From Penicillium oxalicum (lineage: Eukaryota; Ascomycota; Eurotiomycetes; Eurotiales; Aspergillaceae): a stretch of DNA of 64,000 nucleotides. Positions within the stretch are counted from its first letter, which is position 1, and the number at the start of each line of letters is the position of its first letter. The notes beneath the pieces are model-generated. The model was not told where the DNA came from. It ran no database searches and saw nothing but the letters and a program-made list of their open reading frames with translations. Below, piece after piece: positions 8,901 through 55,799 of this stretch. A program made the translations under genes and the position numbers. The stretch spans positions 1,550,001 to 1,614,000 of the forward strand of contig NC_064654.1 in assembly GCF_001723175.1 (NCBI RefSeq), read 5' to 3'.

Positions 8901-9102
8901 ACTATTAGCCGTATACGGTAGTTATAAGTAGCCGAAAATGATATTGCACCTTTTCCTTTGTTAAACCCCTACCATTTTACTTTACCGTGTATATATAAAC
9001 GCACCAAGGCGGGAACCTGCGGATATAACCGAACGGAGTAGTAGTGAGCTTAGGCTGAGTTACCCTAAAGCTCGGGGCGAGTTTAGTCTAAGTAGGGGAG
9101 GA

Positions 9103-9299: not shown

Positions 9300-10500
9300 T
9301 TCGAAAGTAGACCGCAAGACTAACAAAAGAGCGTACCTTATCGCGATTAATAGGGACCGGCTAGTCGGCTAACTTAGAAATTTTCCGCTTATTAGGTCTG
9401 CGCCCGTTAGAATCGTATACCTAGCCTATAATTTTAAGGCCGGATATTACAAGTTGCGATTTTTCTGCAGAAACTCTCGCTCCCGCAAGTTCTAAAAGGT
9501 ATAGGGTCTTATCTAGATTTTGTATATATTCTAAGATAAACCTCCTAATCCCTAGTCTTATAAACTCGTTATTATACCGGGTCTTAGGTCCTTTAACCGG
9601 AATATTATCTATAAAAGGTTTAGTAATATATAGAATATTAGCTAGGATCTATATAACTACTCTTTAGAATTGCGGTATAGAATTCGAAGCCCCTTGCAAT
9701 AATATAGTCTGCCTTAGCAAACCGATCGGGGTCTAAATCGCCGTTATATTTCGATCGCGACTATCTAGAGTTATCTAGTTATACCCGGAAAATAGATTAA
9801 TAGCGGACGATATTACTATGCCTGAAAATTCTTTAACGAATTCGTCCGTATTAGGGGGTATATTCGTATCTCGTACTATTACTTTGTTGATATATATTAT
9901 AGTATTTACTATACAATATTTTTTATTCTTCTTGCGTACTAAAAACTAAGGATTTCGGTAGGGACTATCGCAATATTCTAGGACCCCTTTTTACAATCTT
10001 TCCTATAATATCTCTTTAACTACACCTTTTAGCGCTAGCGGGATTCGAAATCTAGGATACTACTAGGCCTTATACCGAATTGTCTTGATGCGTTATAGCG
10101 GTATTACTTCCGGGAAAATCAAAGATATATAGGACTAATCCTACGTAAAACAACCTTCTCTTTTAAATAGTATCTCGCGTAATAATCCTTTTTCTTTCGG
10201 TAGAAGATCCTTTCTAATTAATATTTTCTGCTCCCTTTTAGGTATCAGACGCGCACCTCTTGCGATCGTAGAGATCCGCGGTATTAGCAGATTATTAAAT
10301 TTACTTTTAATATTAGACGCGCGATATTTAGTAAAGTATTTCTTTTCGCAGATTTCCTTCTAATTTGTATAACTAGTTAGCACCGATCTATCGTTTTCGG
10401 TCGCGTTAACTAGTTTAATCTTGTCCGCTACTCTTTTAAACAAAGTATAAACCGGCACACCTATACCTATAGAGTTAGGGCTCGGATTCATAGTCAAAAG
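9300..10500 (-). pseudogene. Element E reverse transcriptase (FLDD type)
   Basis: In minus-strand reading order: an N-terminal palm segment (LFSGYN, ITLDSRDRN, TPIGLLRQT) at about 9690-9830, and the catalytic loop at about 9590-9625, now FIDN. In active relatives this loop is FLDD, so RIP removed one metal-binding Asp. The position upstream of RNase H at 1293-1874 fits RT then RNase H order once element D is removed. Confidence 0.75.
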
Positions 10501-13600: not shown

Positions 13601-14280
13601 TCCTTTCTTTTTTATCGCTTTTCGTCGTCTGTTTAGTATACGTTTTTCTCGTGTTTTCTTCTGTAGAAGAATTTTGTAACTACCGTTTTAGTATAGTATT
13701 CTCTTCTAGTAAGATCGTTATATTAGCCGCCTATAGAAACCTTTCTAAAGCGATAAACTAACTCTATATAAAGTTTAGATAGACTAAGTTTATCTATTAA
13801 TATAATTAGTCCGGAGATATTTTTAGCAATCGAATTAATATCTCTCGATCCTCTTAGTATCGATCAGCTAATAATCCGCGAACGAGCTAGGTATACCGGT
13901 CGAACAAAGGTATAGTATTAGCCGTAAGACCCTCGGTAGGAGCAGCCTCCTGTATATAGCTAAAAGTCGCGTATTTAGCTATAATATAAGGTATCAGTTT
14001 CGAATAATAGTCTTAATTTCTCTTAATTTTTCGTCAGGGTCAAACGCGTTGCCTACTTTTTCTGCAGAAAAGTGCAGAATTTCTTAATTATAGCGGTAGT
14101 CGTAATAGTAGCGGTCGTAGCGGTCGTAGTAGTCGTTCTAGTCGTCTTAGTCTTAGCAGTCTTAGTAGCAATCTTAGTAGCAATCTTAGTAGCAATCTTA
14201 GTAGCAATCTTAGTAGCGGATCCTTTTATAATCGTATCGTAGGAATAGTATAGTCCTCTATCTTAGCTACCTTTATTGCA
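10680..14280 (-). pseudogene. Element E gag and protease region
   Basis: Homologous base for base, apart from RIP changes, to F (28622-34270) and, for its right part, to H (51978-54586). The amino end starts with a Lys/Ile/Ala/Thr repeat encoded by a 12 bp tandem array (14150-14215). A second gag block (ancestral start near 13350) corresponds to the 121-codon open frame left in H. It contains several copies of the TTCTTCTGCAGAAGAA-type palindrome (11654, 11718, 13658). Too many stops to define proteins exactly. Confidence 0.65.
14150..14215 (+). repeat. 12 bp tandem array at gag start of element E
   Basis: Successive copies of CTTAGTAGCAAT, about five. On the coding (minus) strand they give repeated Ile-Ala-Thr-Lys. 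F and H carry the same array with different copy numbers. Confidence 0.85.
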
Positions 14281-14284
14281 AAAC

Positions 14285-14302
14285 CCCTGCGTCGGTTACT
14301 AA
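14285..14302 (-). other. Primer-binding site of element E
   Basis: Next to the 5' LTR on the coding strand lies TTAGTAACCGACGCAGGGG; F and H keep versions of TGGTGACCGACGC. A PBS starting TGG should pair with a tRNA 3' end GCGTCGGTCACCA. Which tRNA this is cannot be decided here. Confidence 0.55.
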
Positions 14303-14650
14303 TAAAGAGGGGAATGCTCACGGTAGTCTGATCTCACCAGACAGGTCGAGTTATAGAGGAACTAAACTAAACCTACAAGCACGCAAGTCCTGGAATCCTC
14401 TAAAGTAATCGTGAGATCCGATGTTAGGTACTAAAGGCAGGAATCAAAAAGAGTGTGATATTTCAAGTGTAAGGAATCTGACTGTAAAGACTGTCCTGAA
14501 TCCTCCGTCCAAACTGTTGTTCAAGTATGATGATGATGCCGGATCCCGTAAGCTAGGTCCTAGATAACCTTCCTCGGCGGTAAGGCTCTTAGGCATCTCC
14601 TACTACTGAATATCCGCCTTTAAGTACGTGCAACCGAATCCCCCACTACA
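14303..14650 (-). repeat. 5' LTR of element E (348 bp)
   Basis: On the coding strand it runs TGTAGTGGGGGATTCGG...CCCTCTTCA. On + it begins TAAAGAGGGG (ancestral TGAAGAGGGG) and ends CCCCACTACA. Copies: F 34340-34689, H 48597-48947 and 54587-54937. Confidence 0.9.
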
Positions 14651-15159
14651 ATATATAAATATTCTTTTAGGTAGATTTTCTTGGGAGGTTATAGTACTTG
14701 GAAACCCTAGAATAAAAATTTTATTCTGAGAGGTAAGTCTTCCCGAGAGAATCCTCTTAAGAGGAAATTAGTCTTGGGAGGCCCGACCGAAGAGAAAATG
14801 CTATATAAGAGGGCCTACGTTATATAGAATGCTTCTTTGTATAGGACCCGTCCTATAACGGTAGTCCTAGTCCTAGCCTAGTCATAAGCCGGCTTGCGTC
14901 ATTAGCCAATTTATTTTAGTAAGGCGGTTATTAGTTCTATTCATTACAAAGAGATTCGATTGTAGATGCCTTTTAGCCAGGGTTCCTACTATCTTGCGAG
15001 TAGACGATCTTAGGTTTATTTTAAACTAGAGACTCTAAGAGCCTCTTAGGGACGCTTACTAAGAGGTCAAGGTTAGATAAGTTTCACGATATCATTAACT
15101 AACGAACTAGATATACGCTTAGGAGCGGCACGTCTAGATACGTAGGGCCTCTATAGATT
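14651..15159. other. RIP-damaged stretch with no recognised gene
   Basis: Stop-rich in all frames and rich in TpA. It may hold the upstream part of the dynamin-like gene whose GED follows (a frame with ISLTNELDIRLGAARL can be read near 15090-15140), but nothing is firm enough to name. Confidence 0.4.
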
Positions 15160-17658: not shown

Positions 17659-17849
17659 AGCCCTGGCATAACACCTAGTTAGGTTTCCGTGGGCGGTGAA
17701 GCCCTAAACACAAACCCAGCCCAGTTTAACTCATCGTCTGACGTAAAGACTCTTTATCACTATTGCCACTTTAACGCGACTCGCGCGAACACTGCTTCGT
17801 GCACTCCTCGAGACCTAAATCATCTCAACATTTCATATCCTGCATCTTA

Positions 17850-19393
17850 ATGAAGTACGATAAGTACTTCCTGCCTAACGGGCAGCAGATCAATGTCAAA
17901 CCATCCTTTGGGGGGTTTAGTTTTACAGTCGATGAACACACCTTACGCGGCTCTTTTCCACCTTGGTGGTCGATATCTCTTTATAGCGAGAACTTAAGTA
18001 AAGGAGTTCCGCCCAGTGATGGGGTTGGCCAGTCCCTAATCGATCTTGTCTCCTTTACAAGACCGACTCTTCGCAGTGACGTGCTACATCTTTCTTCAAT
18101 ATCGACACCGTCAATTACTGACGCGAAACCTGAAAGCTCTGTTACCAGACAAGTGGCTATGGTTTTATTTGCCACCTTTCTCTGGTATTTCCAAGAACCT
18201 GCACCAGAATGGCATTTTCACACATCGAGATTCGTCACAGATACAGGAGCAGAGTGGAGCCTAAGAGTGAAAGGAGACGGCATTCTAAGTGGCAAATATC
18301 GAATGCAGAGACTCGAGCGGATGGGACTAATCGCGACTGCTGACCCCTCAGTGGGTTCGCAAGATAGTTCAGAGACCTGTTTCGAGATGTTCATCAGTCA
18401 AAGAGCCTTTTGGCAGTTGGATCCCGGTATATATCTATTTACTCTGGATCCGCCCCGCTTTCCTGTCGGTGATGAGGTGGCATGCGATGATCTTCCATCA
18501 TTGGATGCTTTTGGAAGAGGATTCCCCTTTGGCGCTGGGCCTAACACTTCTGGGACTCTCATACCCTCATATTACCCTCCCATCCCACTTCAATATAAAT
18601 ATACTGACAGCATCCGCCATCCAGTTCGCCCAAGAGCTCCACGTCAAGGAGAGATTTTTTACAGGAGGTTTATTCCCAGCCGTGGTCAGAACATGACATT
18701 CCGCATACCTCTAGTCCCAATGGAAAGCTCAATAAGGTCACATTCCGCATCAACGCAGCCATACATTTGGAGTGGTCCGAACACATGCCTTGACCCTGAA
18801 CTTATGAATGATTTAAAGTTGCTTCAACGATGGATGAGCCAGTCTCAAAACCACACAAGCTCGATCCAGAGCACTTCTTTCGAGGGTCAGCGGGAAAATC
18901 TCGACAGTTGCATGTCAAGCAAATCATCTTTTCCTGCACTAGCATATTGGGGCTCAACTCCCGTTGGCTTTCTCGAGATTTTCTGGGTCCTTGAAGATCG
19001 TCATGGCGAGCTGCGGGGCAAGGTGGAGGACTGGGATAGGGGCTTTCGGTTCTTCATTGGAGATGACGACTTCAATGGCTTGGACGACCTGGCGCTCTTC
19101 CTGAGCTCAGTGGTTCATTATTGTTGGTTGTGCGATCAGAGAACCTATTCCGTTCTGGTGGAGGTTAGGGCGGACAATAAAAGGTACGATACTCTTCAGA
19201 TGAATGGGCACTCCTGCCAATTTTCGATTCGTCAAGTCCAGAATTTCGGCAAGCCAAAATTGAATTCTTCTACAGATTCATCGCATGCCTACAAGATATC
19301 GGTTTCTTTAGGGAAAGCGAAGTGTATACTCCGCAGGAGGGTGCTGTCATCATGAGAATTAAGCGTAGTTTCTGGGTTGCACCTGTTACCTAG
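17850..19393 (+). CDS. SidF/AceI-like siderophore (N5-hydroxyornithine) acyltransferase, divergent
   Basis: Family members move an acyl group from CoA to N5-hydroxyornithine to build hydroxamate siderophores. Start: ATG at 17850 (MKYDKYFLPNGQQI) is preferred because relatives begin with a similar LPNGQ segment followed by FGGFSF; 17 further codons upstream have no ATG. Family landmarks in order: SSISTPS, VTRQVAM, LERMGLIA, RAFWQL, RHPVRPRAPRQGE, then a GNAT/IucB-type domain (PVGFLEIFW, DWDRGFRFFIG, LSSVVHYCWL, VRADNK). A 53 bp intron (19184-19236, GT...AG) restores IACLQDIGFF...VAPVT; total about 496 residues. Odd: where relatives keep His after DxDRG it has Arg, and the GPHR loop reads GLDD, so activity is doubtful. 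Codon use is normal with no RIP. A lone copy; no other siderophore gene is nearby. Confidence 0.85.
19184..19236 (+). other. Predicted 53 bp intron in the SidF/AceI-like gene
   Basis: GTACGATACT...GTCAAG. Splicing joins ADNK to SPEFRQAKIEFFYRFIACLQ in frame and restores the conserved carboxyl end, which otherwise lies in another frame. The length is typical of filamentous fungi. No strong branch-point consensus is seen. Confidence 0.7.
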
Positions 19394-19399
19394 TATATC

Positions 19400-20014
19400 G
19401 ACCGTTTGAACTTATGAGACCTAACACCAAACTGCTCATAAACTCGTTCTTCTTAAAAGCGAATTTGAATAGAGTTACAATATCCCCTGTTCGTTCCTTA
19501 TAAAGAGTAAACTTCTCTAGGAGTAGCACAAGGCGGTCGAATGATAAATAATGTAGCGTAGTCTACCTCGTTCTGGACGCGATACGGTAGTACCCATTTC
19601 AGTATGGCAAAGAAATAAATTTGCATAACTGTATTTCGGGTCGGTGCTCTTTTCGTCGTCGGGTCGGTAGTTAGGATTTATCTGACCCAATCGCTTACGT
19701 ACGGCAGCACAAACAATAGGGAACCTCTCTGGGTGAAAGTAGTTCTAGGTAAGCCTAGTAGGGTCCTGTCGTCTCATAAATTCCGTCGATGAGGTGATAT
19801 CGGGTTGACAATTGTGGGGCTCGCAAATCGGAGAGGGGACGGAGTAATCACCAGAATACACAAGCTCGAAGCAACGGCCAAAGAGTACATTGTCCAATTC
19901 TTCGATCATAGGAGGTTGGAGGATCTCCTTTGGGAAGAGGCTTATTAAAGCCGCATGGATAAAGATTTTCTGTTGGTCTTTGCCGACAACGAACTGAGTA
20001 ATATCAGAGTGCAT
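19400..20014 (-). pseudogene. BTB/POZ-domain protein, broken
   Basis: ATG at 20014 begins an 89-codon frame with a fungal BTB pattern: SDITQFVVGKDQQKIFIHAA followed by the strand/helix region and ELVYSGDYSVPSPI. A stop ends it near 19745. Further left the domain's usual carboxyl helices can still be read in other frames (KFTLYKERTGDIVTLFKF near 19470-19520), so at least two frameshifts or a lost splice pattern broke the gene. BTB proteins of this type mediate protein-protein contacts; targets are unknown. It converges on the SidF-like gene. RIP is mild here. Confidence 0.65.
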
Positions 20015-25689: not shown

Positions 25690-28342
25690 TCTATAGGGGT
25701 CCCGTCACTATCGAGTAACAATCACTAATATATCTCTGAAAGTGTATGACTTCTGCAAACTCTTTCTTATAAACATTACAAGCAATAACGGTGCTTAATA
25801 CAAGATTCTGTAGATGCTTTCGCTTGATATGCTTCGAAACATCTCTATGCGATAAGAATCGTTACACACGCTTCCTAAGAGCTAGGTTTTGCTATCCTAT
25901 ACAAATAAAGCAAAACAAGGGTCGATAGTCTATTATTACAGATCGAATAGCATTTTTAAGTGGGCTTGCCGATTTAGCCTAGACCTTAGTCGTTTCGCTT
26001 TCCGGCTTCTGATCGATATTATCACGCTCTGCTAGATAGCTTTCGACCCGTTTATTTTATAGCAAACGGCACGTGATACCCTCCTCAAATTAACAGTAAG
26101 CGGCAACAGCATCAATAGCTTCAGTGCGTCGATATATTTCTTGGTCTAATGTCGGCGATAGCAGAGTTAAAAGACGCTCAATCAAATGTTTCTGAGGCTC
26201 GGGCATCTCCTCCGTGTGTCGTAGTTTTGTCGTCACCGACTCGGCTAGTTTCGTCTTAGATAGCTGCCGCTATACTTCTAATATAGGTTGCTCTTGATTA
26301 TATTTCTTCTGAAGCTATAATAGCAATACGTTTCTAGCCCGTTCCCGTGCACTGTTAAGCTCTTGTTTTAGCTTTTGATAGCTTTCGTATTTCGGACTTC
26401 CCCGGTGCTATGAAAGTGGACGGCCTAGTTACTAGCGAAGTGTATCACGCCGCTAGATAAGGGGAGAAATTTCAGGCTATTCGTTAACTAAGGAGGATTA
26501 GGCAGTCGTTAATGCTTGTGGGCGGTCGGGGTCGATAGTCCGGCTTATTCGACAAGCTATATATATGATATTATTATCTGGATTCAGGCCTCGGATAATA
26601 GCAGGAAGGTTCTTGTTAATCCGCCGGTCGAGATAGTACTTCAGAAAAGTACGAGTATCGGCGTGGTGCATAATCAGGTTGCGAAGTGAGTTACTTATAG
26701 CTCCTAAGATGCAGGAAGTTAGCTATAGGAACCTACACGACGAGGATTATAAAGGAATCTGCTTACCGCTATTATCTAACGCTTTTCTAGCCCCGTATCG
26801 AAGGCTATAAGGACGGGCGACTTATCGGAAGCTAGTAATAGTACTAATACTTTTAACCTAAGGAAGAAGAGTTAAGTAAGGCAAAGATTTATCGGCGGAA
26901 ATGCCGATTCCTTGCAATAATCGCTCCGTCTGCCGAAAAACAGGCACGTTGTCTAGAGCCGGATCAAGCAACAATAGAAGCTCGTTGCAGCTATCCCGAA
27001 TATATAAGCGAGGAAGCTGTTCTGCGGAGGTTAGGACCTCCTTACCTTTAACTCTCTTGAAGGCACGGTCCGCAAAAAGCAGTCATAGCAAGAAGATATA
27101 GGGGCTGAGAACAAGTGAAGGGTCAAAAATAATCTCCGGCAGGATATATATATTTCTGTGCGACAGTTAGCGGGCTATAGCAATATTAAAACTCCCTAAT
27201 ATTAATATGCTTACTCGTCCTTGGAGCCAAGAAATCCCTTAGTGTATTCAAACTTGAATTCGATCAAGATTCTGTGAGGGCCGCCTTGCGGATCTCGGAG
27301 CAGACTGACTCCGATATAGCGATACCGCAAGCTTAGCACTGCCTAGGGGCGATTAGCTATAAGACCGGCTAATTGTAGGAAAAGGCAAAGCTCGATGCGA
27401 TACCGACCGTGTCCAAATTTTTTCTTCGTCGTACTAATAGCCGTTTCCACGACTATAGTCAAGTCTTCCACAAACATAGTAGACTTTTCGCGGCCTTTAC
27501 AAGACAGTTTATACTTTCGAGCTAACTTGCGGATTACCTGTAACATCAATTAGAGCTATCCACACTATAAAGAAGGAAGCTTTAGAGACCGAGAGGTGAC
27601 TTCGTTTCTTACCCGGCGCATCTGTCGATTCATCTGTTTTCCGATCTTTTCTGATATCGCTCTTTCAAAAACGAGTCGAAAGACTTTCCAAAACGTCTCT
27701 AGTAAGCTTTTTCGTTTAATTCCAGGCAGCCGCCTTCTATTTTTGCCCCGTCGCAAATTCAAGGCCTAGTCGAGAAATATATGTATAATAGCAATAGATA
27801 TCTTCCGGAATTCTTGTTCAGGATCTTTGCGGAGAGATGTACAAAATCTAATAGGGTTTAGACAAATAATAATAAGAGGGAAGAGCTTAACAGAAAAATC
27901 AGACGTACTATTTCTAACGAGACTCGACCTAGTCAAGAAGGATAGTAGTGCCTTTGCTATAATCCTCTTTTGTATACACAGACTCGTCAAACTCTGCGAG
28001 TTACTACAGGTAATATTCAGGAGAATGTTCATTATCTGCAAAAAGTTGCGTAATATCACTAGTATCTGTAAGCTGATCCTCGTCGAAATCAGGCTCTATT
28101 GGGTCGGTATCGTAATGCTCGTCGCTACTATCTTTAGAGCTATCTTCTCTAGCCTGTGAATTATTGTCATACGATTCTGACCTAGCCTGTCGTCGAGAGC
28201 GGTCTATATTGTAGTGGAATAGGTAGAAAGAATTATTTAAGGACGTACAAGTAGAAGGAAATGTTAGGTTGGTAGGTAGCGTGGATAGTAACGAAGGCCG
28301 AGGAAGCAACTTCCATTTAAATAAACCCTTCTCGGAAACCAC
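25690..28342 (-). pseudogene. DUF3435 tyrosine-recombinase-like gene (Starship-captain family) with C2H2 tail
   Basis: Read right to left: an acidic N-terminus (ATG 28342; SSDEHYDTDPIEPDFDEDQ), a DUF3435 core (LNLRRGKNRRRLPGIKRKS, ETFWKVFRLVFERA, KKFGHGRYRIELCLFLQLA), then recombinase boxes: YSLRYGA with the catalytic Arg (26789-26811) and HHADTRTFLKYYLDRR carrying His and Tyr (26627-26671). It continues with RTIDPDRPQAL, coiled helices, and two C2H2-like fingers (CFICV..., KRFLSHRDVSKHIKRKHL, ACNVYKKEFAEV) to about 25690. About 850 residues, in several frames, many TAG/TAA. DUF3435 proteins include the captains that move Starship elements; many DUF3435 genes are not captains, so mobility is inference. 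Its 3' end is duplicated at 21.3-21.8 kb. Confidence 0.8.
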
Positions 28343-28620: not shown

Positions 28621-30126
28621 TATTGGAGTAAATTATAGCCTATTTTTAGTATCGGTATCTTATTTATTGTACCGGAAGTATCGCCGATTAGGCTTCCGGA
28701 TATCCTAAAAAATCTACCTCTATATTCGTAGGTTCTACAAAGTCTTTAGGCTATAGCTAATACTCCTAGACCGAAGTTTTCTTACTCGGAGAATATACCT
28801 TAAAGACTAACCTCCTAGTCCGGTCTTCCGAAAAGACTACTATTTTAATAGAACTATTAATTTTCTCCGTAGTAGAAGCTATTATATCGCGTAACTAGAT
28901 TCGTCCTAGAAGAATCTCTGCTATATAATCCTTTATAATTATATAGTAAGAGTACGTTATAATATCGCCGATTAAAATAGGTAAGCCTTCCGTAACTCCG
29001 TAAAAGGGACGCGTTCGGCTATTAATAGGCACTATATATAGCTTTAGATCTTTTCGAATATCAAGGTTTAATATACGTGCTATTTCCAGGGAAATAAGAT
29101 TAACTAATAATCCCTAATTAATCGTAGCTTTAAGCTTATACCTATATACGTATACCTTCGTACGCAAGAGCCCTCTAGTATATTCCTTAAACGTACCCGA
29201 ATTTCGTGGCGCAGAGATTCGTACCGATCTTCTAAGATCCTATACCCGCGCGGTTACTTTATCTACTTTTGTAACTCGCTAAGTAGTAGCGAAGTATATA
29301 GGCGTAGTAGTATTCGTAGTATTCGTAGTATTTATAGGCACCGAAGGTTCGAAGGAATTCGTAATATTTCTAACTTAGCTACGTAGTTACGGTAATATAA
29401 ATATTAGATTACCTAGTATAATCGTAGGCGGTATAGGAATAGCTAGTAATTTTCTAGCAATTTCTTCCTTACGTTAGGTAGTAGTATCCGCGGAAGGCTT
29501 TAGGCGCTTTTAGATAGTCGACGAATTTCCCTAGTCTTAGATTTCTTCTATAGAAGAATCTCGCGGCCAACTATTTAGTTAGCGATCCTATTCCCGCCTA
29601 TAAATTTCTTCTACAGAAGAAATTCGTAAAGGGGCTAGTACTATATCCGCTATTATATCGTCTTTATTAATAGTCGCTAGATAGTATCTACTTAGTCGTA
29701 TACTACGTACTTTCGTATAATTTCCGGACTAGTTAGAGCGCTTACGACTAGCTAGTTATCTATTAATAGCGAAGACTTCTCCCTTATATATTTCGTCTTC
29801 GCTTCCTTCTAACCCTTTAAAATTAGTATCTTTTCTAAGAGAAATCCCTACTAGATCTACTAGAGTAACGTAAATCTATAGGATATAGTATAAATAGGTC
29901 CCTAAATATAATTAAAGCGTAGTAATAGTAGAGACTATATTAATATTCGTACGCCAGTTCTTCTACTACTAGTACTAGTCCGGAACTATATCCTTCTAAA
30001 ATTAGTCGCCTCTCTTACGTGCCTCTAGTCTATTCTTACCGATCCTACTAAATACTACTCGATTTAGTTTATTTCGGTAGTATAGTCCTTTATTCTATAT
30101 ACTTAAGTAGACAGGATAACTAGTTA

Positions 30127-30169
30127 ACGTAATTCCCGGTCGGGCGGGCCACCCGGTCGAGCGGGCCAC
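30127..30169 (+). repeat. Pogo terminal inverted repeat, left
   Basis: Starts ACGTAATTCCCGGTCGGGCG; mirrors 32122-32164 with about one mismatch. Confidence 0.9.
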
Positions 30170-31054
30170 CTACCCCTATTACAAAACTTCCAAATCGATT
30201 ATATCAACCAACGTCTATTAATTCAACTAGATAATACGATTTTTACATGAAGTAATCCTGTGGCCAACTTAGCTATATCTACTGCAGGTAGGCGGAGCCC
30301 TCCTAGCTAGTTGAATCGGCTAATTAGGCAGATCGACCGCTTCATGCGATACTACCTCATCAGCTTCTACTAGCTGAATTAGCTACTAAACTAGCTATAG
30401 GCCCTCTTCGATAGTTAGGCCTCCTTCGTATACAATCTGCCTAGTCGATCGAGTGCGCTTTTGACGTTTCTTTTTATTCGCTACGCGTAGATTAGCGTTC
30501 TCCCGCGCTAGTAATGCACTGCTATATAATAAGAGATAGGCGCCCTTGATAATCTGATCAAGTATAGCTTTTGATAGCGTAGGCGGGCTATACGATCGCT
30601 ACTTAAGAAGCTCTTTAAGTATAGAAGCTTACTTCTCTAGCTATATCGCTATCTTTAGCGTCTTTAGGGTAAACTAGCTAGATCTGCTACTTAGTCGGCT
30701 TAATAGTAGCGAAGGCGTATATAGCGATATATTAAGCTTAGAAAGCACTCTTTCGGCGCTAACTAGTACGATACTAGTAGCTATAAAGCTACTTTGAACG
30801 ATCTTCGGCTAAAAAGCTTCTATCCTCGCGCGAGGATAATCTGCGAGAAAATTAAGCTTGTCGATATAATTATAACCTGTTCGGGCTAGGTCGCTCACGA
30901 ACTAACCGTACGCACGCTTAAGTACTACAAAGCACCTAACATCAAGCGGCTATAGTAAGTGAGACAAATATAAAGGCATGCAAAGTAGTATAATATCGTT
31001 TTCGGTATATATTCGATCGAATTAAGGTGTAAGATAGCTACCGTGACCGTCAAG

Positions 31055-31208
31055 TGAGATCCCGGAAGGGTGGTCACGTGAGTCATGACTCACGTGAGTA
31101 CCCCCGTTCGGCCCCGTATAGCCCCGTGACTGTCCTTACAGACCCGATTTTTAAGAGATACTGTAGAGATACTCCAAAAATCAACCTTTCTTTACTCTTC
31201 GAATCACA
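31055..31208 (+). repeat. Solo LTR of element D family inside the pogo transposase
   Basis: 154 bp, TGAGATCCCGG...CGAATCACA, nearly identical to the LTRs of D and little affected by RIP. Flanked by CAAG/AAAG, a one-mismatch 4 bp duplication; removing it restores LILDGHGS in the transposase. Keeps the perfect 22 bp palindrome (31075-31096). Confidence 0.92.
31075..31096. promoter_or_regulatory. 22 bp E-box/AP-1 palindrome in solo LTR
   Basis: Second perfect copy of the palindrome described at 1895-1916. Confidence 0.6.
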
Positions 31209-32121
31209 AAAGGATTAATAGCCGAAATCGCCCTCGTACACGCGAAGCAGTATATAGAATAAAGAGCTTTTAAAGCCAGCGAAGGCCGATCTTATCGGTA
31301 GTCTAGCCGTTATTCGATACTTCAATTCGCTAGTCGCTAGGAAGATTTGATTCAAACCAGCTAGCGATATAAACCTAGCCTTTAAAGATAATACAGGGCG
31401 GTAGCGAGAAGCTATTAGCGTATATTGCCTCGATCGCAGTAACCTATTCGCGATTACTAGGCTATAAAATCGATCGCCGGCCGTAGTATTCTGCTCGTAT
31501 AACAACCTTCTGCGATAATATAAGGCCTATCGCAAAGCCCGTCTTATCAAAGTTATAGATATCCTCTGGTTGTATCCCGTTCTCGTCAATCACTCTTTGT
31601 ACGGTCGTAAACTAGGCTCGTAGGGCTTTTAGGTCTTTGTTTAATACGCGCTAGTAGTTATATCGTCTAGAAAAGCGTGTACGAAGCTTATCACGCCGTT
31701 GGATAAAGGAAGATAGCCAGTTTTTGCCAACAGTAGGTAGTAGGCTATCACCACGCGCAGCTAGCAGAATATTAGCTATCTCTCGAACAGTAGAGGGCCT
31801 AGGCGCTACTCCACGCGAATCCATAGATATTATCCACTTAGTAAGCGAATCCTCTTCGAATTAAGTCAATTTATGACCGTTTAGGCGAGTATCCGCGCGT
31901 AAGACTCGACCCTCTTCACGGGCTTGTAATATTGTGCGCGGTATTTCGTATAGCTTCGCTGCTACGCGAATAGATTTGATACGGCCATTTTTAATATCAT
32001 CAAGGGCTAAGAGGATCCTGCCCTCCTGATTGGCCAATTTCTGCGAGGATTCAGTACGAATTGGTGGCATAGTAGGTGGTTGAATTAGGTAGGATGGTAG
32101 GAAGACGCGATTTTAGAGAGG

Positions 32122-32164
32122 GTGGCCCGCTCGACCGGGTGGCCCGCCCGACTGGGAATTACGT
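32122..32164 (-). repeat. Pogo terminal inverted repeat, right
   Basis: Complement of the left repeat, ending GGGAATTACGT next to the duplicated TA. Confidence 0.9.
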
Positions 32165-34023
32165 TACTTAATATCCTTTATTTCCGTACTAGTAGTAACT
32201 ATTAGGTAGCTATCTTATAGGTATATAAGTAGGGTTATTATAGCTATCTTATAGGTATATAAGTAATGTTATTATAGCTATCGTTTTTCGTAATCAGATA
32301 CTAAACTAAGACTCTCTGTTTATTAGCGGTCTTCCGCTAGTCTTTAATAACCTTTATTATATTTACTAATAGACCGTTAAACGTATTCGTTAAACTTTCT
32401 AAATCTTAGCCTCTTAAAGAGCTTATAATCTTGTTTATAGAGTCCCTATTCTTCGGAGTATCTATTATTTTCGTCCCTCGTATAATTTTTCTCTAGAATC
32501 CGCGTAGACCTAGATTCCTTTCTAGGTACTATATAGCCTATCGCGAGATCGTAATCCTTCTAGTCCTAATTTAGATCCCTAGTAGCTTTTTCGATCTAAT
32601 TAAAAGAGATCCGTCTTTTACTCCTAGAAGGGTAGTTAATATTAATTTTCTTCTTCTTATTAATTTCGATCTTAACTTTTCGGTAGTCCTTCGATAAACT
32701 AGTATATCTTTCTAGATCGCTAATATCTCCTCTCTTTACTAGTACGATAATACGATAAAAATATAGTTAGATATATATAGAAGTCGTCCTATTCGATACG
32801 ATTTCTATAGAAACTCTATAGCTAGGTACGAGTATAGGTAGCCTATAGGCTATCTATATCGCGATACTAATCTTTAAAATCCTAGAAGAACTCCTTATTC
32901 CTTACCTACTATTTAAATTCGCCTTAACCTATATATATTATAGCTAACCGTAGTAATCTAGAAGGATCTCTAAAATTCGCGTATATTCTTATATTATACG
33001 CTTATACATACGCTTAAAACTATCTAAGAATTCTAATATATTTCTGCCTTCGAATCAGGGCGTACTAGGGGTCCCTAGCTTAGGTATAGTCCTAACTATA
33101 TATCGTAAAGTTTATATCTCCGAATTTAGCGTATAAACTTACGTTAGTATCGGCGAAGGAGCTAGTCTCTAAGGTAGTAGCGGTAGTAGCGGTACTCTCT
33201 CGCTAAACCCTTTAGGCGACCCTTTAGCAGATTCAGAGGGGCTCTATCGCTAGGATTACGATAGGTATCGAAAGAGGTTATATTCGTAGTATATCTAAAG
33301 ATATTCTATAGTCGTTTAGTTATTTAGATTACGATAATTACTTTAGCTTCGTAGGCTCTATCTAGTCCGGATATTTTTAGGGTTTTTTAGGTATAATAGT
33401 ATCCTAAGGGATATAGCAAGATTCGCAAGGTAATTAACTCTTCGTATTTAACGAAGTCGTAAAATTAGTAGCTAGTCTAGATAGTAGCGCAATTCCTAAT
33501 TCTTTTTAATTTTTCTTCTGTATTCGCACTCTTTTTTATAGCCGTTTTTCTCTCCTTTATCGCTTTCCGTCGCCATTAGTATATATTCGGCTCGCGATTT
33601 CTTCTGCAGAAGAATTTTGTAACTACTATCTTAGCGTAGTATTTTCTTCTAGTAAGATCTTCGTATTAGCCGCCTATAGCAGTCTTTCTAGAGTGATAAA
33701 CTAGCTCTATATAAAGTTCGGATATACTACGTTTATCTATTAATATAATTAGTCCGGAGACATTTTTAGTAATCGAATTAATATCTCTCGATCCTCTTAG
33801 TATCGATTAGCTAATAATCCGCGAACAAGATAGGTATATCGATCGAATAAAGGTATAGTATTAGCTATAAGACCCTTAGTAGGAGCAGCCCCCTATATAT
33901 AGCTAAAAGTCGCGTATTTAGCTATAATATAAGGTATTAGTTTCGAATAGTAGTCTTAATTTCTCTTAATTTTCGTTAGGTTAAACGCGTTACCTACTTT
34001 TTCTGCAGAAAAGTACAGAATTT

Positions 34024-34255
34024 CTTAATTATAGTAGTAGTCGTAATAGTAGTCGTAGCAGTCGTGGCTATCTTAGTAGTAGTCTTAGTAGTAGTCGCGG
34101 TAGTAGTAGCGGTCGTTTTAGTCTTAGCGGTCGCAGTAGTAGCGTCAATCTTAGTAGCAATCTTAGTAGCAATCTTAGCAGCAATCTTAGTAGCAATCTT
34201 AGTAGTAATCTTAGTAGTAATCTTAGTAGTAATCTTAGCAGCAATCTCAGCAGCG
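34024..34255 (-). repeat. Tandem array at gag start of element F
   Basis: About eight to nine 12 bp units of CTTAGTAGCAAT type (34147-34250) plus looser TAGTAGTCG repeats. The coding strand opens at ATG 34266 (MKGSAAEIAAK) and gives Ile-Ala/Thr-Thr-Lys repeats, a strongly basic tail. The array is longer than in E or H. Both strands stay open here only because the unit length is a multiple of three. Confidence 0.85.
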
Positions 34256-34339
34256 GATCCTTTCATAATCGCATCGTAGGAATAGTATGGTCCTCTATCT
34301 CAGCTACCTTTATTGCAAAACCCCTGCGTTAGTCACCAA

Positions 34340-34689
34340 TAAAGAGGGGAATGCTTATAGCAGTCTGATCTCACTAGATAGGTCGAGTTATAGAGGAACT
34401 AAACTAAATCTACAAGCACGCAAGTCCTAGAATCCTCCAAGGTAATCGTAAGATCCGATATTAGGTACTAAAGGCAGGATTTAAAAAGAGTATAACATTA
34501 CAAGTGTAAGGAATCCGACTATAAAGACTGTCCAGAATCCTCCGTCCAAACTATTAATCAAAACCGATGATAATGATCCTAAAGATCCCGTAGCCTAGGT
34601 CTTAGATAACCTCCCTAGGCGGTCAGGCTATCAGGCATCTCTCACTACTAAACATCTACTAAGTATATACAACCGAATCCCCCACTACA
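34340..34689 (-). repeat. 5' LTR of element F (350 bp)
   Basis: TAAAGAGGGG...CCCCACTACA on +; the neighbouring primer site keeps TTGGTGACTAACGC on the coding strand. Confidence 0.9.
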
Positions 34690-35201
34690 ATATCTAAGTC
34701 GAACTCCGCCGTTTATGCTAATCCTGTTGCTAATTCGAACCCTGTTGCTAATATGAACCCTGCTGCTGATGTGAACCCTGTTACTAATGTGAACCCTGCT
34801 GCTAAGCTAAACTTCGTCGCCTAGTTTGATCCTATCGTAGGGTCTAGTCCTGATATATGGAAGTCTGCTATGAGTAAGAATCTAATAGCGACGCGGAGGG
34901 CCCTGCTAATAAGGTTGACATAGGCGTGCTAAAACGGAGCTATGGAGTACTTTATAAAGATAGGTTGACTTGGGACGAGAAAAGGCTCTGCGATGTTGCT
35001 AGGGTCTACGGTTGGTAAGGATCCGGTACTAAGCGGGGTGCTAAGGGACGATTTTAGGCTAGGGTCCTCGGTGGTAGCGATAAGGAATAAGGGTGCTATC
35101 TTTGCTAAGATTGTGGCCTCTGCTGATCTTGGGTACGATATATACCCTGTGTGCCCTACGTGCCCTGTATACCCTACGTGCCCTATATGCCCTGCGTGCC
35201 C
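34690..35201 (+). pseudogene. Unrecognised coding-like fragment with short repeats, cut by element G
   Basis: RIP is light. On + a frame reads tandem NPVANxNPAA-type units (34725-34800, an 18-24 bp degenerate repeat), SSPDIWKSAMSKNLIATRR, then a 108-codon open frame from 34993 (MLLGSTVGKDPVLSG...) that ends in CPTCP/CPACP repeats built from a 9 bp TGCCCTACG-like unit (35149-35200). Element G begins directly after. The frame changes at least once. Could be a retroelement ORF1 or a host gene; undecided. Confidence 0.35.
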
Positions 35202-48300: not shown

Positions 48301-48596
48301 ATTACGCGGAATTACTATATTCCGGTACTATACAGAAAAGTCCGGAAGTATATTTAGTAATATAACTCGTATTAACGAAACAAGACGTTACGATACGTAC
48401 TATACAGAGAGATAGAATTAGCGAAGTACTATAATAACTAGGAATAGATTATAATAGACTTTATAACGAAGTTACCTATCTTAGAAGGAAATAATATAAT
48501 AATAGTAGTCGTCGATCGACTAACTAAGTACGTATATATAATACCGATAACGGAAACTATTAATATACGATAGATAGCTAACCTACTACTTAAATA

Positions 48597-48947
48597 TGAA
48601 GAGGGGAATGCTCACGGCAGTCTGATCTCACCAGATAGGTCGAGTCATAGAGGAACCAAACCAAACCCACCAGCACGCAAGTCCCTGAATCCTCTAAGGT
48701 AATCGTGAGATCCGATATTAGGTACTAAAGGCAGGAATCAAAAAGAGTGTGATATTGCAAGTATAAAGGATCTGACTATAAAGACCGTCCTAAATCCTTA
48801 ATCTAAACCGTTTTTCAAACACGTCGATGATAATACCGGATCCCGTAAGCTAGGTCCTAGATAACCTTCCTCGGCGGTAAGGCTCTCAGGCATCTCCTAC
48901 TACTGAATATCCGCCTTTAAGTATATGCAACCGAATCCCCTACTATA
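48597..48947 (-). repeat. 3' LTR of element H (351 bp)
   Basis: TGAAGAGGGG...TACTATA on +. Outer edge (48597-48700) nearly free of RIP, inner edge RIPed. Confidence 0.92.
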
Positions 48948-48960
48948 TAACCTCCCCCCC
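48948..48960 (-). other. Polypurine tract of element H
   Basis: Coding strand GGGGGGGAGG next to the 3' LTR, directly after the cargo gene's stop. Confidence 0.7.
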
Positions 48961-51519
48961 TATAATTTACCGTCCCTTAGTTAATTTCCCGTATCCCTCG
49001 ATAGTAACGTTAGATCTCCTAAAGACCCTTAGGCTGACTTACTAGGCTATATAAAATTTGGTAAAACCGATAGGCCCTTCTCCTTTCGCAGAAAATAAGA
49101 GTGTGCGCTAAATTGCTACCGTTCGGCCTTTATCGTTATCTCAAAATATAGTAGGTAGGCCCGTCTCGCCTAGTCGCGCTACTCCTAGATTAATCTATGC
49201 GCTCGTTACTAATTCCGGCTAAAAAGAACGTCTAATTCTTCGATAACTACAGGGGAATCCTATCTTTCGCGACCGATTAGCGTATCTCTGATCGGACTTG
49301 ATTCTGGTAACCGAATTAATACAGAAAAAGGATACGTAAGCCGACTGCTATATTTCTAACTAGACTACCCGGAAGGAGTCTGTTCAGGTAACGAAAAATC
49401 GTGATAATAAGCCGAAAGTTCAGACTAAGTACCTAATTTAGGACTGTCTAGGGTCTTATAATCTTCCCTGATACTAATAATAAACTAGGGCAAAACCGTT
49501 CGCCGAAGATAAGTCGCTAGTCCTATTAATCTATGAGGAAGGTATAGCTTCGAAATACGTATATCTCCCTATTTACAGATAACTTTTTCCTAGGAGAGAC
49601 TAAATTTCTCCTTATCTTCTGCTATCTATATCGTAGCCGATATCTTATAGATTAAACTATCTTTTTAGTAACTACGATTGCGCAGATCCTGCTATTACTT
49701 AGTAAGGTGGTTTTGTATCCTAAGTAGTATTTCAGTGTAATTTCGTAGATCCTTAGCCGTTAAAGAGACCGTTCCCTAGATTATATTCGCTATTCGCTAG
49801 GATGCAAGGAGATCCGTTATATTAATATTAAGATAGCGAAAAGTAGTCTGTTTATTAGGGTATACACTCTTCGCGTAGTAAGGAAAAGAAATTAGCCGAT
49901 ATTAATAATCCGGTCGTAGCAGAATATAGAGTAGGTAGTAGGTATAGTCGCGCCGTACTAGTTGCTAGATACTACTATACTATGCGTTTTTGGCCTATCT
50001 AACCCTTAGTGTATGCTTTCGCGATTAGTAATACTAATCGTATATATTGAATTCCTCCTCGATTATATCTATTAGACCTCGAGGATGATAGCCGTCCTAA
50101 TTATTACGTAGCTACGCAAAAATTAGTACTACTATATTTCCGTTAACGTTCTAATCCCTCTCTATTTTCTTCCTAAAACTTAGCGGAACCCTTCTAAAAT
50201 AGCGAAAGCTAGTATCTTAGAAAGTTAAATACTATATCTTCTCGAAATTCGATACTAGAGGTTTTCGTATCTTAGGAGGGAATCGAAAGTAGCTCCTAAG
50301 TTCTTTTCTAGAGGATAGTTTAAACTAAACCTTAAATTCCTTCTTGGCCCTATCCTAGTCACCGAGCCGGGCGTAAAGGTATCGTAAGCGTTATACCAGA
50401 GTCCCGTAATCGACACTGTTAGTATAAATATATAAAAGATATACTAGCTAAGTTATATACCCCTTGCAAATCGAATTAGGGCTAATTTTAGTCGTATTTT
50501 AGTATATAGACCTGCCGACAAGCCGAAAAATTACTAGCGCTTCGCGCTTATGTTTAGCATCTAATTTCGTCTTCGGAATTATTTTAGCTAGCCTAGAAGC
50601 ATCTATCTTTATCTATAGGGTGCTAACTTTAATAAACCTTGCGATATCTTCGGTTTCTTAGTAGCAGGCTCCGTTAATAGTTCTGATTTCTGCGATCGCT
50701 TATTATTATCGTTATCGTTATCGTCGTCGCTTAGTTCCGGGCTCTGTTTGCGCGGTTAGATTTCTTCTATAGAAGAAATTCGGCTTCCTTCTAGATCCTG
50801 GTTTCGCGATAGGATTTCTTCTGTAGAAGAAATTTAGCTTTTATCCTTATCTAGAGCTACGCTTTAATCCTTATCTGCCTTATCCAAAATTCGCGGTATC
50901 CGATAGTATTCGTATATAAATCTATCTTTATTAATCGATAGATATTATCTTGATAGCCTTTCTAGCGTTAATTCCGTTAAATCCGGCGATTTATAGGCGT
51001 TATCGAGATTATCTTATATAACCTCTTTAGCTCTTCGGATCCCCCGCCTATATTTCCTTTCTTAAGTCGTTAGAGAATAGCGTTATTAACTCTAAGCTAT
51101 ATCTCTTCGAAACTGATTCCGCTCCTTACTAGTTTACTAACTTTTTCGGCGAAAGCTTTCGTTCTAGCCCGGATTATAATCTTTTTAGCGTTACTATTCT
51201 AGGCTTATAGCGCTACGTATATTACTTACTAGATATAGTTCTTGTCGTATTCGCGGCGATTAATCGCTTCTCTTGCTACCGTCTAGCTATCCTCGAAATC
51301 TTCCCGAGACTTATATCCTTTCTAAAATTCGCTATCTTTCACAAAAGTATAGAGTTCGATCACGACGGAGTCCAAAAATTCCTATCCTTTTTCGCAAATC
51401 TTATACAGACAGAGCTTAGCCGCCTTATAGATCTAGTCCGTAGGTAGTATTCGTAATTCTTCGATAATCTTGCTAGGGGAAATAACTAATATTAAATAAT
51501 TACTTAGTATCGAAGGCAT
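48960..51519 (-). pseudogene. Cargo gene of element H, possible 2-oxoglutarate/Fe oxygenase-like C-terminus
   Basis: ATG at 51519 (MPSILSNYLILV) begins a frame with TAG at Trp/Gln-like sites (KAAKLCLYKICEKG, AKKIIIRARTKAFAEKVSKL), a Ser/Asp-rich linker with KRSQKSELL and ATKKPKIS (nuclear-signal-like, about 50640-50700), then a second domain: GYHPRGLIDIIEEEFNIYD (50040-50095), FRYLNINI (49815-49845), VSLTAKDLRNYTEIL, GDIRISKLYLPH (49540-49575), RRTVLP (about 49500), and RKEKGLSVLPN near the end. The stop adjoins the polypurine tract. FR(H)x(D)IN...GDxRI...R recalls cupin-fold dioxygenases of the phytanoyl/TET-like group, with His and Asp lost to RIP, but this is tentative. About 850 codons with frameshifts. 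Confidence 0.55.
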
Positions 51520-51977
51520 AATATTAAGGTGCTAGCTTGTGGCGGATATTGTAGCCTGGTTCGTTATATTAAATTCTTCTGCAGAAGAAATTCGTAGTAT
51601 TTAGCGAAAATCGTTATAATTTAAGCTCTCTCCGGAGACTTCCCTCCCTTCCCAAAAATCTTGCTGTCCCTAGTAAGTTACTTTTCTATTACTTTTTAAA
51701 ACAGTCTTAAAAATTACTAAATTTCTAAATAAAGACAAAATTTAGCAAACCTAACAAAATTAATCCGTTTCTAAGAGAAATTAATAAAAATATAAAAAAA
51801 TCCGAAATATTAGTATTAAACAGACTAATTAATACGTAATATTTTAACAAAGAAAATCATATAATTAACTTAACCCTGTCCCTCTCGCGGTAGCTGTCCT
51901 CTTCTGCGCCTTTGCGTAGCAGGTAGCAATCCGTTCTTAGCCTTAATTCTTTTATCCTTATCCAAATTTCTTTTATC
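51520..51977. other. AT-rich spacer between cargo gene and gag of element H
   Basis: 51700-51870 is very AT-rich with few CpG, unlike the rest of H, and has no open frame. It may be the cargo gene's former upstream region. 51880-51960 contains TGCGCCTTTGCGTAGCAGG-type sequence with little RIP. Confidence 0.45.
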
Positions 51978-54586
51978 CTAGAGTGGCTAACTGTTTAGTT
52001 AGCGATCCTGTTCCCGCCTATGAATTTCTTCTACAGAAGAAATTCGCAAAGGGGCTAGTACTATATCCGCTATTATATCGTCTTTATTAATAGTCGCTAG
52101 ACGATATCTGCTCGGTCGTATACTACGCACTTTCGCATAATTTCTAGACTAGTTAGAGCGCTTACGACTAGCTAGTTATCTATTAATAGCGAAGACTTCT
52201 CCCTTGTATATTTCGTCTTTGCTCCCTTCTAATCCTTCAAAATTAGCGTCTTTTCTAAGAGAAATCCCTACTAAATCTACCGGGGTAGCGTAAATCTGCG
52301 GAGTATAGTATAAATAGGTCCCTAAATATGATTAGGGCGTAGTAATAGCAGAGACTATATTAATATTCGTGCGCCGGTTCTTCTACTACTAGTACTAGTC
52401 CGGAACTATATCCTTCTCAACCTGGTCGCCCCTCTTGCGTGCCTCTAGTCTATTCTTACCGATCCTACCGAGTACTACTCGATTTAGTTTATTTCGGTAG
52501 TATAGTCCTTTATTCTATATGCTTAAGTAGATAGGATAACCGGTCACTCGATATCCTTTATTTCCGTACTAGTAGTAACTATTAGGTAGCTGTCTTGCAG
52601 GTATATAAGCAGGGTTATTACGGCTATCGTTTTTCGTAATTAGATACTAAACTAAGGCTCTCTATTTATCGGCGGTCTTCCGCTAGTCTTTAATAACCTT
52701 TATTATATTTACTAATAGACCGTTAAACGCATTCGTCAAACTTTCTAAATCTTGTCCTCTTAGCGGGTTCGTATTCTTGATCGCAGAATCCCTATTTCTT
52801 AGCGTATCTGTTATTTTCTGTCTTTTAGACGTTTTTTCTCTAGAGTTTAAGTAGACCTAAATACCCTTCTTAGGCACTACGTATCCTATCGCGAGATCGT
52901 AATCTTTCTAGTCTTAGTTTAGATCCCTAGCCGCCTTTTCGATCTAATCGAAAGAGATCCGTCTTTTGCTCCTAGAAGGGTAGTTAATATTGATTTTCTC
53001 CTTCTTGATTAATTTCGATCTTAACTTTTCGGGCAGTCCTTCGATAAACTAAGTATATTGTTCTAAATCGCTGATATCTCCTCTCTTTACTAGATACGAG
53101 GAAACAGACGAAAAGGTAGTTAAGTATATATAAAAGTCGTCCTATTTAATACGATTCCTGCAGAAACTCTGTAGCTAGGTACGGGTATAGGTAGCCTATA
53201 GGCTATCCGTATCGCGATACTAATCTTTAAAGTCCTAGAAAAACTCTTCCTTATTCTTCGCTTACTAGTTAGAATTCGCCTTAACCTATATACGCTATAG
53301 CTAACCGTAGTAATCTAGAAGGATCTCTAAAATTCGCGCGTTATTTCTTATATTATGGCGCTTATATATGCGTTCAAAACTATCCAAGAATTCTAATATA
53401 TTTCTGTCTTCGAATCGTGGCGTACTAGGGGTCCCTAGCTTAGGTATAGTCCTAACTATATATCGCAAAGTTTGTATCTCTGAATTAGGCGTATAAACTT
53501 GCGTTAGTATCGGCGAAGGAGCTAGTCTCGGTAGTAGTAGCGGCGGTAGCGGTACTCTCTCGCTAAACCCTTTAGGCGATCCTTTAGCAGACTTAGAAGG
53601 GGCTCGATTACTAGGATCACGATAGGTATCGAAAGAGGTTATATTTGTGGGTATATCTAAAGACATTCTGTAGTCGTTTAGTTATTTAGATTGCGATAAT
53701 TACTTTAGCTTCGTAGGCTCTGTCTAGTCCGGATATTTTTAGGGTTTTTTAGGTATAATAGTATCCAGAGGGATATAGCAAGATTCGTAAGGTAATTAAC
53801 TCTTTAAATTTAACGAAGTCGTAAAATTAGTAGCTAGTCTAGATAGTAGCGCTATTCCTGATTCTTTTCGATTTTTCTTCTGGTTTTTCACTCTCTTCTT
53901 ATAGCCGTTCCTTTCTTTTTTATCGCTTTTCGTCGTCTGTTTAGTATACGTTTTTCTCGTGTTTTCTTCTGCAGAAGAATTTTGTAACTACCGTTTTAGT
54001 GCAGTATTCTCTTCTAGTAAGATCGTTGTATTAGCCGCCTATAGAAACCTTTCTAAAGCGATAAACTAACTCTATATAAAGTTCGGATAGACTAAGTTTA
54101 TCTATTAATATAATTAGTCTAGAGACATTTTTAGTAATCGAATTAATATCTCTCGATCCTCTTAGTATCGATCGGCTAATAATCCGCGAACGAGCTAGGT
54201 ATACCGGTCGAATAAAGGTATAGTATTAGCTGTAAGACCCTCGGTAGGAGTAGCCCCCTATATATAGCCAAAAGTCGCGTATTTAGCTATAATATGAGGT
54301 ATTAGTTTCGAATAATAGTCTTAATTTCTCTCAATTTTTTGTTAGGGTTAAACGCGTTACCCACTTTTTCTGCAGAAAAGTGCAGAATTTCTTAATTATA
54401 GCGGTAGTCGTAACAGTAGCGGTCGTAGCGGTCGTAGTAGTCGTTCTAGTCGTCTTAATCTTAGCAGTCTTAGTAGCAATCTTAGTAGTAATCTTAGTAG
54501 TAATCTCTTTTATAATCGTATCGTAGGAATTGTATGGTCCTCTATCTTAGCTACCTTTATTATAAAACCCCTGCGTCGGTCACTAA
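51978..54586 (-). pseudogene. Element H gag region (121-codon frame still open)
   Basis: Matches E 11681-14302. One stretch stays open: ATG 53666 to 53301 (MSLDIPTNITSFDTYRDPS...), Ser/Pro-rich, then a capsid-type segment (STPRFEDRNILEFLDSFERI). Upstream it carries the Lys/Ala/Thr array (54460-54510), about three to four units, the shortest of the three copies. Contains palindromes at 52025 and 53964. Confidence 0.75.
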
Positions 54587-54937
54587 TGAAGAGGGGAATG
54601 CTTACGGCAGTCTGATCTCACTAGACAGGTCGAGTTATAGAGGAACTAAACCAAACCTACTAGCACGTAAGTCCCTGAATCCTCTAAGGTAATCGTGAGA
54701 TCCGATATCAGGTACTAAAGGCAGGAATTAAAAAGAGTGTGATATTGCAAGTATAAAGGATCTGACTGTAAAGACCGTCCTGAATCCTTAATCTAAACCG
54801 TTTTTCAAACACGTCGATAATGATGCCGGATCCCGTAAGCTAGGTCCTAGATAACCTTCCTTGGCGGTAAGGCTCTCAGGCATCTCCTACTACTGAATAT
54901 CCGCCTTTAAGTATATGCAACCGAATCCCCCACTATA
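54587..54937 (-). repeat. 5' LTR of element H (351 bp)
   Basis: Same ends as the 3' LTR; the primer site (coding strand TTAGTGACCGACGCAGGGG) follows at 54568-54586. Confidence 0.92.
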
Positions 54938-55799
54938 ATATATATTTACTAACTATAGAATACCGAGCAAGATTACCTCGGACAGAGATAAACTATTTAT
55001 ATCGAATATATAGTAGTTATTAGCGGATTAACTTAGTATTAAGTATAGACTCTCTACCGCGTACTACCCGCAAACTAACGGATAAACCGAAAGAGTTAAC
55101 TAAACTCTAGAATAATACCTACGATACTACGTTAATTACTAACAGGATAACTAGGCAGGATTATTACTAATAGCGTAGTTAGCGTATAATAACGCTATAT
55201 ACGCTACTACTAGAGAAACACTATTCTTCGCTAACTATAGGTTTAATCCTACTATTATCGGGAAAACTATCGGAAAATAGCTACTCGCAGAATCGTCGAG
55301 ACTACTAGCGACTAGGCTTAAGTAACTATATTTATAACTAACAAGGGATATCGAGTTTCTTAATCTGCGTATAAAAAACTACTACGATTAGTCGCGCTAG
55401 GAGGCGCCAGACTTTTGAAAGGGGGAGAAAGTTTACCTCTTATAACGTAATATTCGTACTATATAACCTAGCGCAAAGCTCGACTACCTTAAATTAGGAC
55501 TATTTAAAATCGAAGCAAAAATAGGACCGCTTAATTACCGATTAAAGCTACCTAATAGTATATAATATATCTATACTATATTTTATATCTTATTATTAGA
55601 AAAAGTACCTAAGAACGCTAAAATCGCTACTAATATAGAAATCGGAGAAGAAACCGAAAATAAATATAAGGTCGAAGAAATCCTAGATACTAACAAAATT
55701 AGCGGAAAGCCTTACTACTTAGTAAAGTAGAAAGGATACGATATCTTAGAAAATATATAGGAACCTATTAAGAACCTAAGAGGCTACTACTAGCTAGTT

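Follow-up and report, generated by a model that had tools for sequence, protein, structure and literature searches.

We analyzed a 64,000-nucleotide stretch of the Penicillium oxalicum genome (30.8 Mb in 17 contigs; G000:C5:1550001–1614000, hereafter the window) and focused on element H, a long terminal repeat (LTR) retrotransposon copy at 48597–54937 with its element sense on the minus strand. An earlier note on this DNA had described H as a relative of another copy in the window, E, that carries a captured foreign gene in place of pol. We found the gene to be a resident of the family, placed between pol and the 3′ LTR, and pol to have been lost from H by deletion. H is very probably a pol-deleted copy, inactivated by repeat-induced point mutation (RIP), of a Ty3-type family of about 10.7 kb that normally carries gag, pol and a gene for a putative oxygenase.

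Structure of element H

The features of H are as follows.

48597–48947, minus strand: 3′ LTR, 95.2% identical to 54587–54937
48951–48960, minus strand: polypurine tract, a purine run of the minus strand adjoining the 3′ LTR
49023–50603, minus strand: C-terminal part of the putative oxygenase gene, PhyH/DUF1479-like 2-oxoglutarate–Fe(II) domain, RIP-degraded; 42% identical to protein P0016 over 527 columns
50604–51579, minus strand: N-terminal part of the same gene and linker; the frame of H changes between about 51056 and 50603
51580–51872, minus strand: AT-rich spacer between pol and the oxygenase gene, common to full-length copies
51873–51989, minus strand: pol remnant, the last ~40 codons, with an Arg-rich tail also seen in full-length copy L044 and in pol protein P0043 (compared by eye)
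51985–51989: deletion junction, L044 position 561 joined to L044 position 4909, with a 5-bp overlap of the two sides
51990–53666, minus strand: gag region, named by position; 90.6% identical to the window's A copy; longest open piece 53301–53666
54568–54585, minus strand: primer binding site for tRNA-Arg(ACG); identical to the tRNA gene over its final 15 bases, one mismatch in the added CCA
54587–54937, minus strand: 5′ LTR, paired with 48597–48947
54938–54941: target-site duplication, right copy; the left one is at 48594–48596, the fourth base coinciding with the first base of the LTR

The layout reported earlier is thus present, and the paired LTRs, tRNA primer site and polypurine tract are hallmarks of Ty3/Gypsy elements. 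The gag region is so named by its position and its sharing with other copies, and a scan of its minus-strand frames gave no match to a Pfam family model. At least 41 matches to the LTR were found in the genome (best 40 of 84 candidates scored). The 14-base core of the primer site occurred at 20 places, and the five that we fetched were all tRNA-Arg(ACG) genes outside element copies.

The target repeat flanking H is 3 bp long, or 4 bp when the opening base of the LTR is included, in keeping, along with the 4-bp repeats of two other pol-less copies, with the fixed-length duplication of Ty3/Gypsy elements. H is inserted in the pol gene of another element, which has 20 other matches; the uninterrupted site was seen in four of five fetched copies of that element, and the fifth gave no second flank. 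Most of the window bears the mark of RIP: of 32 segments of 2 kb, 28 have a TA/AT of 1.3 or more and 26 a (CA+TG)/(AC+GT) of 0.7 or less. The element copies are ruined by RIP-type mutation.

Rightwards of 51985, comparison within the window matched H to the A copy (11677–14657, 90.6% identity) and to the E copy (29565–30120 at 91.2% and 32163–34696 at 82.4%); leftwards, it matches neither. The point of departure from E had been placed at 51977, which was right to about 10 bp. The tract of H looked foreign because neither the A nor the E copy of the window extends into it; A stops at 9256 and E at 28627.

The full-length family and the loss of pol

Searching the genome with the tract 48960–51900 gave at least 49 matches (best 40 of 42 candidates scored), and 18 of them, besides H, spanned at least 2,850 bases at 85–91% identity. 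The spacing of the family was computed from 41 LTR matches, 48 of the 49 gene matches and 40 of the 52 for gag (the 13 omitted are short); keeping only gene matches above 1,500 bases and gag matches no shorter than 900 bases gave 30 copies exceeding 1.5 kb. The distance from gene to gag was 4,958–5,034 bp in 12 of the 30, 390–737 bp in four and 5,370–12,612 bp in nine, and five had no gag within 14 kb of the gene; no distance fell between 737 and 4,958 bp. The nine larger distances are probably due to insertions, mispairings or matches that were split; one at least (9,074) was mispaired, and others came from split matches. An LTR adjoined the oxygenase gene in at least 16 of the 30 copies, and in the copy at C8:19666–30320 the tract ran unbroken through the AT-rich spacer into a part absent from H.

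The gap of the full-length copy L044 contained matches to the integrase H2C2 model (E 4.7e-4) and to a Tf2-type SH3 model (E 0.023), both below the curated cut-off and both downstream of the reverse transcriptase (RT). An RT stretch aligned from six copies (profile A5) matched the Ty3 RT–RNase H in the PDB (4ol8, E 9.4e-05) and Ty3 Gag-Pol (E 4.4e-4). One of its rows comes from the window:

9358–9939, minus strand: RT stretch in the A copy, of the same family as H; included in profile A5, and matching pol protein P0042 at E 5.3e-79

This stretch found 11 pol proteins, the best at 66% identity, and among related pol proteins there are matches to the RT, RNase H and H2C2 models. The order RT, RNase H, integrase with an RT of Ty3 type is found in L044 and the related pol proteins taken together; pol is absent from H. 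The family is a Ty3-type LTR retrotransposon with a full element of about 10.7 kb, ordered LTR–gag–pol–oxygenase–LTR. In full, its normal order starts with the 5′ LTR and the primer site for tRNA-Arg, continues with gag, then pol (RT, RNase H, integrase) and then the oxygenase gene, and closes with the polypurine tract and 3′ LTR.

Compared with L044, H lacks about 4,347 bp. The loss took RT, RNase H and integrase and, judged by eye, the protease and nucleocapsid parts, and the earlier failure to see RT or integrase motifs in H agrees with the deletion of the stretch that holds both in the full-length copy. A Pfam search of three minus-strand frames of two H stretches likewise gave no family, which is weak evidence alone, since the RT of this family was missed as well. 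Pol was lost from H by deletion.

The earlier note had suggested looking for further copies of H, and the genome yielded three more that lack pol, with breakpoints differing in each. Their positions on the L044 side and the H side are 944 and 52280 for C5:663362, 794 and 52335 for C2:698595–704987, and 533 and 52216 for C2:674720, with junction overlaps of ~10, ~15 and ~6 bp; later alignments over-extended across the junctions and were left unused. No two of the four pol-less copies share a junction, and no second copy with that of H was found. Four separate losses of pol are the simplest reading; the minimum is two, because the deletion of C2:674720 encloses that of H and the deletion of C2:698595 encloses that of C5:663362. 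The deletion in H may have arisen by template switching during reverse transcription, which would place it before insertion, or by microhomology repair. H alone is an ordinary deletion derivative.

Two other causes were considered and rejected. For pol loss through reverse transcription of spliced RNA, the junctions differ and no common donor/acceptor pair is visible; for palindromes as the cause of the breakpoints, only the right breakpoint of H adjoins one by eye. A 16-bp palindrome, TTCTTCTGCAGAAGAA, is scattered through the element family: 11 of its 12 hits in the window (at most two mismatches) lie inside the family, at 11655, 11718, 13656, 29543, 29606, 33599, 50762, 50816, 51574, 52026 and 53964, and ten scrambled controls gave 0–1 hits each. 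The pol-less copy at C5:663362–669802 (L019, L045) has inserted into a fellow member of the family, within its gag region, and is flanked by the duplication ATAC.

Alternatively, the pol-less copies could represent a non-autonomous subfamily that lost pol, kept gag and the oxygenase, and moved thereafter. Three of the four retain both LTRs, two of these with clean 4-bp duplications (ATAC and ATAG); the deletion spares the oxygenase gene in all four, and the lack of intermediate gene-to-gag distances points the same way. A non-autonomous element would, however, show several copies with one deleted structure, and with all four junctions different no pol-less form is seen multiplied; moreover, deletion after insertion accounts for the data equally well. 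We regard such a subfamily as the less likely outcome by a clear measure. The description of H as non-autonomous holds in that H is pol-less and in its present form could have moved only with the enzymes of relatives; the four different junctions lend no support to movement after the deletion.

That a cellular gene was captured in place of pol and spread with the enzymes of E, as had been proposed, now appears highly improbable. H indeed combines LTRs, a primer site, a polypurine tract and a gag region with the lack of pol, and neither E nor A shows the tract in the window. Against capture, a full-length copy carries both pol and the gene, the spacing agrees in 12 of the 30 copies, and H retains the last codons of pol and the spacer. 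Neither a second copy with the H junction nor the expected cellular parent was found: stops occur in each of at least 55 genome matches to P0001, the top protein relative (53 of 67 candidates scored), and the search turned up no intact parent gene here. The donor of the gene may possibly lie in another genome. Least probable of all is an independent insertion of the tract with ends of its own, suggested by the sharp departure from E at one point, as in other copies the tract is continuous, by way of this spacer, with the adjacent part of the element, abuts the LTR and keeps a constant spacing in those 12 copies; nor does the tract of H contain an RT.

The putative oxygenase gene and its relatives in other genomes

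The minus-strand gene that had been noticed beside the 3′ LTR is real and about 2.6 kb long, and the AT-rich spacer preceding it was also correctly recognized. The last 551 codons of the tract lie in one frame in 6 of 20 copies. We built a gene profile of the frame 48951–50603 from seven copies, the six in-frame ones and one shorter, with stops as X. It matched six proteins, headed by P0001 from Penicillium atrosanguineum (850 residues, E 1.7e-73) and including P0006, which carries PhyH. A search with P0001 added 35 proteins, of which Penicillium accounts for seven of the eight with a species name. The 41 relatives are 341–1,129 residues long, 29 of them within 700–1,000. For the N-terminal part, 51013–51579 is 42% identical to residues 67–222 of P0016. 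The N- and C-terminal parts are in the same register in 4 of 20 copies, and no frame-changing intron is therefore needed; a short intron in the variable linker is possible.

Transversions present in at least two copies numbered 5, 0 and 12 at codon positions 1, 2 and 3 of the C-terminal frame (p 0.0016); in the spacer, the counts were 3, 2 and 8, with no significant bias (p 0.089). The relatives include fungal proteins with a PhyH/DUF1479-like 2-oxoglutarate–Fe(II) oxygenase domain, the predicted structure of one relative has the barrel fold of the PhyH/DUF1479 group and lies near 7twe, 4rgk and 6akz, and the HxD...H metal site and distal Arg are kept in 38 of the 40 relatives that cover the site. 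From the predicted fold and the conserved site, the third gene looks like one encoding a putative PhyH/DUF1479-like 2-oxoglutarate–Fe(II) oxygenase, the product of which would consist of a helical N-terminal part, a disordered linker and the oxygenase domain. The predicted C-terminal fold resembles YbiU/GIG2 (DUF1479) and PhyH-family oxygenases (7twe, 4rgk, 6akz), at 12–13% identity over the aligned residues; those are chromosomal enzymes.

No TET/JBP family appeared among those Pfam families that 42 rows matched at E 0.1, nor any TET/JBP structure among the 50 folds listed for the relative, though a family absent from that fold list may still be close. The gene profile had no match in a PDB sequence search, and NCBIfam gave no informative match for the 42 rows. 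A weak match to the DUF6094 methyltransferase appeared in four of the seven gene copies (best E 0.011, another 0.032, below the cut-off). A first guess from one frame, that the tract is a second gag gene, was dropped once the oxygenase relatives appeared.

The association of pol and oxygenase probably extends to at least two other genomes. The oxygenase P0016 and the pol protein P0043 both come from source lgn, each on a 10,218-bp contig, and the oxygenase P0023 and the pol protein P0042 from source ena, each on an 8,231-bp contig; shared source and equal contig sizes make the pairing probable, in these contigs with open frames. P0016 and P0023 are the top two of the 41 relatives by score against the seven gene copies, and P0042 and P0043 are the two best pol matches. 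In both the oxygenase tree (30 of the 41 relatives and three copies, the 11 excluded at the outset being short or distant) and the RT tree, the lgn and ena proteins group with the element, at 100/99. The other nine pol proteins share no contig size with any oxygenase entry, so the gene may mark one pol clade, as far as these sequences indicate. Among viral contigs, P0001 had no match, and none of 70 pattern matches to profile A4 was confirmed.

Several observations weigh against the family structure and the gene assignment given here. Pol was identified in the gap of a single full-length copy, L044, and the other copies rest on coordinates; a genome-wide search with PF00078 gave no match in any gap of this family, and a plain RT search would therefore miss its pol. 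When all transversions of the C-terminal frame are counted, they number 15, 10 and 23 by codon position (p 0.068), and those of the N-terminal part, 4, 3 and 5, show no significant codon bias. Both HxD metal-binding positions are changed in all seven copies examined in this genome, and P0001 itself matches no Pfam model. The pairing of P0016 with P0043 and of P0023 with P0042 is one of equal contig sizes, not of contigs read, and both trees carry warnings for RIP-altered rows, the RT rows filling 15–16% of columns.

An oxygenase-like stretch of diverged sequence also belongs to a second repeat family, present at six places (G000:C8:743004–743987, equal to L067:4005–4988; C1:2675109; C5:753925; C7:1871047; C1:2618315; C1:2595243), with 23–24% identity to P0001 in three. 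In L067, this stretch stands between two LTR elements.

Possible role and other features of the window

An LTR retrotransposon family with a 2-oxoglutarate–Fe(II) oxygenase as its third gene, in a strongly RIP-mutated genome, differs from the precedents. Closest are Ty3/Gypsy elements of Phalaenopsis, whose AlkB-type 2-oxoglutarate-dependent dioxygenase open reading frame (ORF) encodes an RNA demethylase active in vitro on N6-methyladenosine (PMC9289625). These are likewise many-copy Gypsy-type LTR elements with an extra 2-oxoglutarate–Fe(II) dioxygenase gene; unlike the 25-kb orchid elements, the present family is about 10.7 kb, has a predicted PhyH/DUF1479-like domain and resides in a RIP-bearing genome. 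Fungal Gypsy elements with an additional ORF of unassigned function or a dUTPase are also in print (PMC2864245); they too are Gypsy-type, reach more than 13 kb and carry a gene or domain beyond gag and pol, and a third gene as such is therefore not new. The accessible text names no oxygenase for them ("dioxygenase" occurs 0 times), and as the comparison is by description, a relative could be among their ORFs. The TET/JBP-bearing DNA transposons of fungi resemble the family in carrying a mobile 2-oxoglutarate–Fe(II) dioxygenase, some in hosts with C-to-T repeat mutation, and differ in being DNA transposons and Helitrons, whereas the element here is an LTR retrotransposon without a TET/JBP model match (PMC12730594). 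Retrotransposons of dinoflagellates and charophytes have recruited a modification enzyme as well, a cytosine methyltransferase and not an oxygenase (PMC5890265). Judging by titles and abstracts, we found no fungal LTR retrotransposon with an oxygenase gene in the literature, covered here without most subscription journals.

By analogy with the orchid AlkB elements, the TET/JBP transposons and the methyltransferase retrotransposons, a role of the oxygenase in escaping host control is plausible. In an active element, the enzyme would most plausibly have worked to the element's benefit on some host modification of its nucleic acid, chromatin or proteins. The best listed folds are mostly oxygenases of small molecules or of unassigned role, and a small-molecule or protein substrate is therefore equally open. 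The stronger proposal, that a fungal Ty3-type lineage stably keeps the gene for use against host silencing or RIP, is one we put forward tentatively and would not bet on: the enzyme might oxidize modified bases in complementary DNA or RNA, or act on chromatin proteins. If true, this would give retrotransposons an equivalent of the TET/JBP genes found in fungal DNA transposons, and an enzyme acting on nucleic acid, chromatin or a silencing factor would offer a testable case of retrotransposon counter-defence.

Elsewhere in the window, a DNA transposon at 30125–32166 interrupts the E copy; it has 46-bp terminal inverted repeats, matches to DDE_1 and HTH_Tnp_Tc5 and related copies elsewhere in the genome. 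A RIP-degraded remnant of DUF3435, which we take to be the Starship captain recombinase family, lies on the minus strand at 27005–27471. The only open frame of at least 150 residues in the window, one of 518 residues at 17799–19355, lies inside an island without the RIP mark (TA/AT 0.71 at 18001–20000). A repeat of about 155 bp occurs at 1874–2028, 9102–9255 and 31053–31208 with 94–98% identity, and its copy at 1874 adjoins a stretch, reaching to 5839, with a match to an RT-bearing element in L067.
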